A DNA stretch of 64,000 nucleotides from Nannochloris sp. 'desiccata' (lineage: Eukaryota > Chlorophyta > Trebouxiophyceae > Chlorellales > Chlorellaceae). The notes under the pieces were generated by a model that was not told the DNA's origin, made no database searches, and saw nothing but the letters and a program-made list of their open reading frames with translations. Positions 1,610 to 3,084 of the stretch are shown piece after piece; position 1 is the first letter of the stretch; the number at the start of each line of letters is the position of its first letter. The stretch lies in contig JAGTXX020000015.1 in the NCBI GenBank assembly GCA_019044685.2, positions 1,550,001 through 1,614,000 on the forward strand. Direction: 5' to 3'. Position numbers and translations under genes: made by a program.

Positions 1610-2149
1610 GAGATCACTTTGGTAGTTTATAGGTGGAGGCGTAAAGTTTATTATACTTTTATTTTCTCTTTGTAAAGATAGGAAGAAGTAGATATGCTGG
1701 ACACGAAAAAGGCGTTCAAGAAAAGCATATTGCAAAACAGGCTCCTCTGTTTTTGAACTTGCATCTGGCAATCGCCGAGGGATTAACTGAGAGCGTGAAC
1801 TGGCAGAATGGATTAATTTTCCCCAAATTCCGTGTTTGTGAGTTATACTTAATTATACGAGCAAGCACCAAGCTATAGAGCCCTGTTTACATGGAACTTC
1901 GTTCGTCATGTCAACTTATTGCACATTTATAACAGCAAAACCAGCAAACACGCCCACCCCGGGCCACATAATAATAAATATGATTGATTTGTACTGTAAT
2001 AAAGTAGAATTGGGGGCTAAAAACGCTTCTGCGCGGAGATCGGGTTTTCATAGTGTGTTGTGGTACAAGTAACATCGACAATTAGAGCAGGACATATTAG
2101 CGCCCCTGCTCGGGGCATCAGCTCCACTCAATAAGGAACTATGCTATCG
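1610..2149. other. Intergenic; CCT1 3' flank and upstream region of the permuted tRNA
   Basis: No protein-coding region is supported here. At 2102-2116 there is a GC-rich hairpin (GCCCC / GGGGC, five-base loop TGCTC). A TATTA-like stretch near 2094-2099 and a CAA at 2129-2131 lie upstream of the tRNA gene, spaced about 30 nt apart. That resembles the TATA plus CAA arrangement known for plant tRNA promoters; assigning promoter function is inference. Confidence 0.5.
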
Positions 2150-2244
2150 ATGATAAGGTCCCGTGTTCGATCCACGGTAAGAGCATCAACATATAAGTCT
2201 TATAGACTGCTCTTATGGCTCAGTGGTAGAGCGTATCACTAGTA
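2150..2244 (+). tRNA. Circularly permuted tRNA gene, predicted tRNA-Thr(AGU)
   Basis: The 3' half of the tRNA precedes its 5' half. Bases 2150-2185 hold A38, the anticodon 3' strand TGATA, variable loop AGGTC, T arm (CCGTG, loop TTCGATC, CACGG), acceptor strand TAAGAGC and discriminator A. A 23-nt spacer (2186-2208) follows. Bases 2209-2244 hold acceptor strand GCTCTTA, TG, D arm (GCTC...GAGC), G26, anticodon 5' strand TATCA and loop start CTAGTA. The two acceptor strands pair perfectly over 7 bp and the anticodon strands over 5 bp. Rejoining 5' half to 3' half gives exactly 72 nt with loop CTAGTAA. G1-C72, C2-G71, A73 and anticodon AGU fit threonine. A-box (TGGCTCAGTGG) and B-box (GTTCGATCC) are both present but in reversed order. 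A T4 run at 2245-2248 directly after the 5' half could terminate Pol III. Permuted tRNAs are established in Cyanidioschyzon and prasinophyte green algae. The exact junction within the anticodon loop is inferred. Confidence 0.88.
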
Positions 2245-3084
2245 TTTTGCCATTCTCGACATTTCTACAACCTACACTCCCCATTTCCAATCGATCGAAA
2301 CTGTTTTCAGTCCAATCCGACCCCATTTGCAACAGTTACATCTGTTTCCAGCTTCCTTTCTAGCTACGAAAAACAGTGGTTACCTTGGTTAATAGTTAAT
2401 TTGATTTAGAAAGATAGGGTGTGTTGTTGTTCACGAAAAGATATTAGGATTGGAAGATTCTTTATGACATTCCTCAGCACACGAGGTAAATCAACATCAG
2501 AAGATGCAGACGCACACTCCGTATTAACTAGAGGTTTTTTTTCCTTCTGCCGCCACAACCACCCTCTTTGCTTGTATAATAATCATCTTCTACGAAATCA
2601 ATTCTCTGCCTTGATATTTAGCCATCAAATAATTACTAAGGAAACATTGTAATAGATGTAAGCTAAGTTTGTGTTTCTAACGGATAGTTGTAAAAAGATC
2701 TCACTCGTCGGCGGGGGGCATGTGATGGCGGTTGCCGTCATTAAAGTGCTACTGAACAGCTCGTTGCAGTACGTGTTCAGATTGTATCAGGAAGAGATAC
2801 AGAAACAAGCATTGCCATGATGTTACGTACTTTTGTAGGGCAAAAGACTGAGGGGATCTCCACGACTCTTCTCCGCCACCTTCTTTTGCTTCCACTTGAG
2901 AAAAAACAAATATGGCTCAAAGCGTGAGATCCGACGCTCTCGGCAAAGTCTTAAATAAATTTCATTTTCGAAAGGCAGTTCTCCTTCTTCTGTTCGTCCA
3001 AAATTATTTTTAGATTATTTTAAAGATTTTTAACTTATCTACCACTCCACAAAACCACCCAAATAATTTGATTGGATCCCAAAA
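2245..3084. other. Intergenic between permuted tRNA and CPSF73
   Basis: About 840 bases with no supported gene. A stretch open from a GTG at 2419 to 2652 has no ATG start and no family resemblance. The last few hundred bases are presumably CPSF73 promoter and leader. Nothing else recognised. Confidence 0.6.

Follow-up and report, generated by a model that had tools for sequence, protein, structure and literature searches.

A circularly permuted tRNA-Thr(AGU) gene and a preponderance of permuted genes among the tRNAs found in a green alga

Positions 2150–2244 of the 64,000-nucleotide stretch analyzed here (the window) were confirmed, by sequence analysis, as a complete circularly permuted tRNA-Thr(AGU) gene, in which the 3′ half of the tRNA lies upstream of the 5′ half and position 2244 is predicted to be joined to 2150. 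We put at roughly 93% the probability that this is a functional gene of type II, with the joint at 37/38, whose transcript would be processed by a circular route. The gene is one of 27 distinct permuted tRNAs, as against 10 distinct conventional ones, recovered in a partial census of the genome that covered 177 of 228 B-box sites. The window corresponds to positions 1,550,001–1,614,000 of contig 15 in an 18-contig assembly of the 21.55-Mb nuclear genome, and its proteins include a CCT chaperonin, CPSF73, a Dof zinc finger, condensin-II H2, and a myosin with a DIL domain. In a tree of glycerol-3-phosphate dehydrogenase, the host groups with Picochlorum within Chlorellales (support of 100/99 for a five-row clade), and the nearest row is a metagenome protein of 92% identity. 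On the thin basis of this one gene tree, the host would be a Picochlorum-like chlorellalean green alga.

The gene was delimited on the forward (+) strand by reading of the letters, by a covariance model, and by ARAGORN after reordering. The 3′ half (A38–A73; 2150..2185), assigned from the letters, the held-out covariance model, and ARAGORN, comprises A38 at 2150, anticodon stem positions 39–43 at 2151–2155, the variable loop at 2156–2160, the T arm at 2161–2177, acceptor positions 66–72 at 2178–2184, and A73 at 2185. An intervening linker of 23 nt (2186..2208), closed by the acceptor stem and free of T4, leads from A73 to G1 of the 5′ half (positions 1–37; 2209..2244), for which a truncated RF00005 match of 20.4 bits was obtained in addition to the letters, the covariance model, and ARAGORN. 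Here acceptor positions 1–7 lie at 2209–2215, the D arm at 2218–2232, anticodon stem positions 27–31 at 2234–2238, and loop positions 32–37 at 2239–2244, with the anticodon AGT at 2241–2243. Directly 3′ of position 37, TTTT (2245..2248) forms a probable RNA polymerase III terminator, and in the end of the 5′ leader (2143..2149), nucleotides 2146–2143 (A, U, C, G) are pairable with loop positions 33–36 (2240–2243). An earlier note on this DNA had placed the 3′ half ahead of the 5′ half within 2150..2244, 23 nt apart, and these coordinates proved exact to the base. The two halves (36 + 36) give the 72 nt that it had reported for the reordered tRNA, with the joint at the intron position 37/38. 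Counted from the letters, the acceptor strands GCTCTTA/TAAGAGC form 7/7 Watson–Crick pairs and the anticodon stem TATCA/TGATA 5/5, matching the full pairing that had been claimed for both; the arms described there as canonical pair 4/4 in the D stem (GCTC/GAGC) and 5/5 in the T stem (CCGTG/CACGG). All 21 stem pairs of the reordered tRNA are thus Watson–Crick.

The sequence CTA is common to both sides of the joint, so that the possible joints could yield the anticodons AUC, AGC, or AGU. Joining at 37/38 produces the loop CTAGTAA, with anticodon AGU, A37, and A38. This choice is favored because eukaryotic tRNA introns sit at 37/38 and a joint there supplies A37 and A38, because the register of pairing between leader and loop (see below) fits it, and because acceptor pair U3–A70 and A73 are unlike those of the local Ala and Asp genes. 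The Ala(AGC) joint was rejected on U3–A70, the three Ala genes found (L012, L076, and L153) having G3:U70, and the Asp(AUC) joint on A73, the Asp gene of the same genome (L009) having G73; the objection raised earlier, that AGC and AUC joints conflict with Ala and Asp identity, was borne out by these comparisons. Together with the anticodon AGU, the reordered tRNA has G1–C72 and C2–G71, which by tRNA identity rules indicate Thr. The letters agree with the previous reading of G1–C72, C2–G71, and A73 as fitting Thr, and the other two Thr genes found (L079 and L172) likewise start with GC.

With the window in genomic order, ARAGORN reported no gene in the 64 kb, and Rfam at gathering score gave no match. 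On the reordered sequence, ARAGORN returned tRNA-Thr(agt) over positions 1–72. A covariance model of the permuted order (37/38) was trained on five permuted and three reordered conventional tRNAs from this genome, eight in all, with the window gene held out. Over the 64 kb it gave a single match, at 2150–2244, with 64.5 bits and an E value of 2.2e-22 (a rough figure from a short calibration), so the covariance check proposed earlier yielded a high score. When the model was applied to the window together with 94 of 184 loci (95 sources), 20 of the 22 permuted genes outside the training set scored at least 32.5 bits, and the other two reached 19.1 bits (a gene whose linker measures 73 nt) and 13.7 bits (a locus cut short); the top conventional locus scored 19.7 bits. 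Taken alone, the 5′ half of the window gene was detected as a 3′-truncated RF00005 match (E 0.0087); for the 3′ half, RF00005 returned nothing at E up to 10. Unconstrained RNA folding of the window gene was unremarkable (z −0.19) and preferred another fold (−26.6 kcal/mol) to the forced cloverleaf (−19.9 kcal/mol); free folding is uninformative about this gene.

It is extremely unlikely that 2150–2244 represents two unrelated tRNA fragments adjoining by chance. Such lone fragments do occur in genomes, and ARAGORN by itself is a loose test: it accepted all 27 permuted genes once reordered, each with the expected anticodon, yet of the 702 pairs made by joining the wrong halves, 98 passed as well. 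The halves in the window are complementary to each other throughout the acceptor and anticodon stems, however, and pairing of these two stems separated 27/27 true pairs from the mis-joined ones (3/702), although the 27 had been chosen partly on pairing. The held-out covariance match argues in the same direction. A conventional order with an intron was sought as well, and ARAGORN with introns of 0–300 allowed found none of the 27 permuted genes in genomic order.

For the census, a whole-genome RF00005 scan (63 of 825 candidates scored, E up to 10) gave 16 matches. Of these, 10 were conventional (nine tRNA sequences, since Ser(GCT) appeared two times), and the six others, which were weak, all turned out to be permuted genes. 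B-box sites were collected with five short motifs (66 + 75 + 38 + 39 + 10 = 228), of which 66, 41, 33, 27, and 10 by motif were read, other T-loop variants lying outside the census. The T-arm motifs do not favor permuted genes, because both gene orders share the T arm. A bias toward permuted genes does attach to 28 of the 177 sites, which were read with 111–141 nt reaching further downstream than upstream; the sole one of these with five T-stem pairs lacking a full gene (L155) proved, when extended, to be a conventional Pro(AGG). The finder, which scores a locus in either gene order, sees joints in the anticodon loop only and allows linkers of up to 130 nt, and the exact 37/38 joint across the 27 genes was assigned rather than output by the finder; the position assigned as 37 is a purine in 27/27, and the leader–loop pairing described below supports the assignment. 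On the scale of the loose finder, the 27 permuted genes score at least 20, and at a score of at least 12 no permuted match was seen in 1.28 Mb of first-order resampled window or in the reversed loci.

The 27 permuted tRNAs serve 14 amino acids in this partial census: Thr (AGT, the window gene, TGT, and CGT), Ala (AGC, TGC, and CGC), Arg (ACG, TCG, CCG, TCT, and CCT), Leu (CAA, AAG, and TAA), Ile (AAT and TAT), Ser (AGA and GCT), Gly (TCC and GCC), Lys (CTT), Tyr (GTA), Cys (GCA), Phe (GAA), Trp (CCA), Asn (GTT), and an elongator-like Met (CAT). The conventional set consists of Val (TAC), Gln (CTG), His (GTG), Pro (TGG and AGG), Ser (TGA and CGA), Asp (GTC), an initiator-like Met (CAT), and a plastid-like Ser (GCT); classing a gene as initiator-, elongator-, or plastid-like is a matter of our judgement. 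Introns of 21–49 nt are present in six of the 10 distinct conventional tRNAs. Of the Thr isoacceptors, three were recovered, each of them permuted. Neither form turned up in the partial census for Gly CCC, Val AAC/CAC, Leu CAG/TAG, Pro CGG, Lys TTT, Glu CTC/TTC, or Gln TTG, ten anticodons that eukaryotes usually have. The permuted share of 27/37 may shift with the remaining B-box sites. Even so, it seems likely that most nuclear tRNA genes of this alga are permuted by default, every gene for several amino acids included, that cytosolic translation relies on circular tRNA intermediates, and that TFIIIC has been kept though the B box precedes the A box in most tRNA genes.

Several loci were left out of the counts. 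A 28th permuted candidate (L065, contig C11:1726669–1727269), with odd D and anticodon arms and 34.2 bits, looks Leu-like by eye and may have decayed or may carry an additional intron. A Pro-like locus (L094, contig C5, about 482934; 20.8 bits) has a 122-nt gap and an odd 5′ half; a T-run follows its Pro-like 3′ half, a 5′-half-like stretch lies upstream of the gap, and the gap holds a second anticodon-arm-like stretch. The permuted Trp(CCA) gene occurs as two identical loci and one variant (L053, L054, and L055, contig C8), two of the three no more than 2.1 kb from the end of a contig; the variant (L055) was left out since the finder missed it, despite 41.6 bits. Among the counted genes, the permuted Cys(GCA) (L016/L020, contig C2, about 219218) has a variable region 12 nt long, 7 nt above the usual.

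The published table of permuted tRNA genes offers a close counterpart to the window gene. Cyanidioschyzon merolae has a permuted tRNA-Thr(AGT) of type II, with the same isoacceptor and 37/38 joint and a linker of 24 nt compared with 23 nt here, and in that alga a T-stretch likewise lies downstream of the 5′ halves, with no terminator in the intervening region (PMC3978253). A permuted Thr(AGT) gene is, in itself, of a known kind. C. merolae differs in being a red alga, whereas the host here is green, and in also permuting at 20/21, 50/51, and 59/60 (PMC3978253), types to which the finder used here is blind. By 2014, 34 permuted tRNA genes had been listed in seven species, with intervening sequences of 1–74 nt, and C. 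merolae, at 11 of 43 tRNA genes, held the most per genome in the review's table (Soma 2014, PMC3978253). Closer in lineage are the prasinophytes and the chlorarachniophyte nucleomorphs, which belong to the green lineage and have short linkers and, for 18 of 19 nuclear joints, the 37/38 position, as here (Maruyama 2010, as tabulated in PMC3978253); occurrence in nucleomorphs is also stated elsewhere (PMC4494063). The green rows of that table hold 3 to 6 permuted genes per nuclear genome, for Ser, Leu, Cys, iMet, Arg, and Asn, with no Thr among them (PMC3978253); here the permuted genes cover at least 27 anticodons, for 14 amino acids.

The earlier note had named a red alga, prasinophytes, and nucleomorphs as the known carriers, which holds, and Auxenochlorella can be added: in this other chlorellalean, the tRNAscan-SE set was incomplete and permuted genes were then detected, as reported in 2025 (PMC12636532). 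It represents another lineage, a window protein being 65% identical to one from Auxenochlorella, and the host here stands on the Picochlorum side. The Picochlorum SENEW3 paper relied on tRNAscan-SE, and it is not among the 37 post-2014 papers containing "permuted tRNA." In a literature search outside subscription papers, we found no report of permuted tRNAs in Chlorellales besides Auxenochlorella, none for the Picochlorum side, and no genome with more permuted than conventional tRNA genes, the Auxenochlorella list, a supplementary figure, standing outside this comparison. Among the tRNAs found, the outnumbering of conventional genes by permuted ones thus looks new. Permuted tRNA genes have so far been treated as rare exceptions; if 27 of 37 holds for the genome, the circular route would be the main road to tRNA. 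Protein synthesis in this alga probably relies on tRNAs made by circularization followed by opening of the circle. Algal tRNA sets that appear incomplete to standard software may be complete but permuted, and how many are so can now be asked.

A further possibility is that the window gene is a permuted pseudogene, composed of relic halves, left for instance by a tandem duplication, and that a conventional tRNA-Thr(AGU) supplying this tRNA was missed by the searches. The incomplete coverage of both the B-box census and the RF00005 scan leaves some room for this, as does the conventional, intron-bearing Pro(AGG), which escaped RF00005 and was found only through its B box. We nevertheless consider it improbable, as 2150–2244 contains no broken stem pair, Thr(TGT) and Thr(CGT) are likewise permuted, and the leader and T-run signals described below hold over the whole set of 27 genes. 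Furthermore, whole-genome BLAST with the reordered 72-mer found only the two halves at the 2150–2244 locus and no second copy, so that the conventional tRNA-Thr(AGU) for which a check had been advised was not seen by BLAST of the genome (with the tRNA census partial). A scan beside the 27 permuted genes for half-copies, as remnants of tandem duplication, found none at a score of at least 15 (99% of the null at 13), two matches at L172 being the gene itself in an unmerged locus. At the permuted Thr(TGT) gene (L079, contig C16:206786–207386), a second T-arm-like stretch lies 40 nt upstream; it resembles the gene's own 3′ half by eye, falls below the half-copy score cut, and is perhaps a tandem-duplication remnant.

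It is hardly credible that the halves were transposed by an error of assembly. Contig C13 does seem to repeat part of C6, but Gly(GCC) is permuted in both of its copies, on C6 and C13 alike, and 27 different tRNAs at loci across contigs show the same order with T-runs placed accordingly. The apparent repeat concerns the end of C6 (Gly(GCC), Ser(GCT), and another site), and C13 is perhaps the other haplotype; the plastid-like conventional Ser(GCT) genes (L004 and L005) lie on these two contigs.

Evidence that the permuted genes are in use was sought in the leader and the T-runs. In eukaryotic tRNA introns, the third base upstream of the 3′ splice site pairs with nucleotide 32, as it does in 5/6 introns of the conventional genes here. 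In the corresponding register of the 27 permuted genes (loop 32–36 against leader −3 to −7), 83 of 135 positions pair; when leaders were shuffled among the genes, the mean was 63.3, and none of 20,000 shuffles reached the observed value. With Watson–Crick pairs only, the count was 71, compared with 45.8 for shuffles (0/20,000). Offsets 1, 2, and 4–8 of the register showed no enrichment (lowest shuffle fraction 73/1000). By this enrichment, a bulge-helix-bulge-like motif at the joint is found over the 27-gene set. The window gene on its own, a single gene and so little data, pairs at four of the five register positions (33–36), with 2147 unpaired against position 32; with 0 nt between its position 37 and T4, the motif can be built on the leader side alone. 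All 27 permuted genes have T4 in the 35 nt downstream of position 37 (background 0.189), and T4 is found in none of their 27 linkers, which measure 5–73 nt. Joints at the intron position and intron-like leader pairing bear on the origin of these genes, being as expected from tandem duplication of intron-bearing genes.

For the 27 genes, the published pathway for permuted tRNAs seems to fit; it consists of endonuclease cuts, circle formation by ligation, RNase P and tRNase Z processing, and CCA addition, and the circularization of algal permuted tRNAs has been shown experimentally (Soma 2014, PMC3978253). In the window, RNA polymerase III would transcribe leader, 3′ half, linker, and 5′ half and stop in the T-run. 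The anticodon stem would bring the transcript ends together in a bulge-helix-bulge-like motif formed by leader and anticodon loop, the tRNA splicing endonuclease would cut off leader and trailer, and a ligase would seal 2244 to 2150, giving an expected circle of 95 nt. RNase P and tRNase Z would then excise the 23-nt linker in the acceptor loop, before CCA addition. Two PF01974 splicing-endonuclease matches are encoded in the genome. Ligation of the plant and yeast type needs a 2′-phosphotransferase, and no Tpt1/KptA match (PF01885) was found in the genome, where split exons could hide one. From the pairing register, the T-runs, the splicing-endonuclease domains, the lack of a second copy, and the permutation of all Thr genes found, we infer that the cell may well need and use its permuted genes.

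The internal promoter boxes of such genes stand in reversed order, which opens tests of how RNA polymerase III starts on them. Tau95 (TFC1-type) gave one match (E 1.3e-10), and this family was silent in 14 prokaryote controls; the B-block family gave two matches but was unspecific, matching in 8 of the 14 controls as well. TFIIIC thus seems to be present in this alga, unlike C. merolae, for which TFC1/TFC3 homologues were not identified according to the review (PMC3978253). C. merolae also has a TATA-like sequence, within about 50 bp, upstream of most permuted genes (PMC3978253), a trait that does not define the class, whereas here TATA occurred within 60 nt upstream in 6/25 permuted genes (background 0.178), two of the 27 with short upstream sequence being left out. 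In the absence of enrichment, TATA-driven transcription as in C. merolae was ruled out. Within 80 nt upstream, TTTTC, the best of many words tried, occurred in 13/25 permuted genes compared with 3.4 expected, and is possibly a promoter-related signal.
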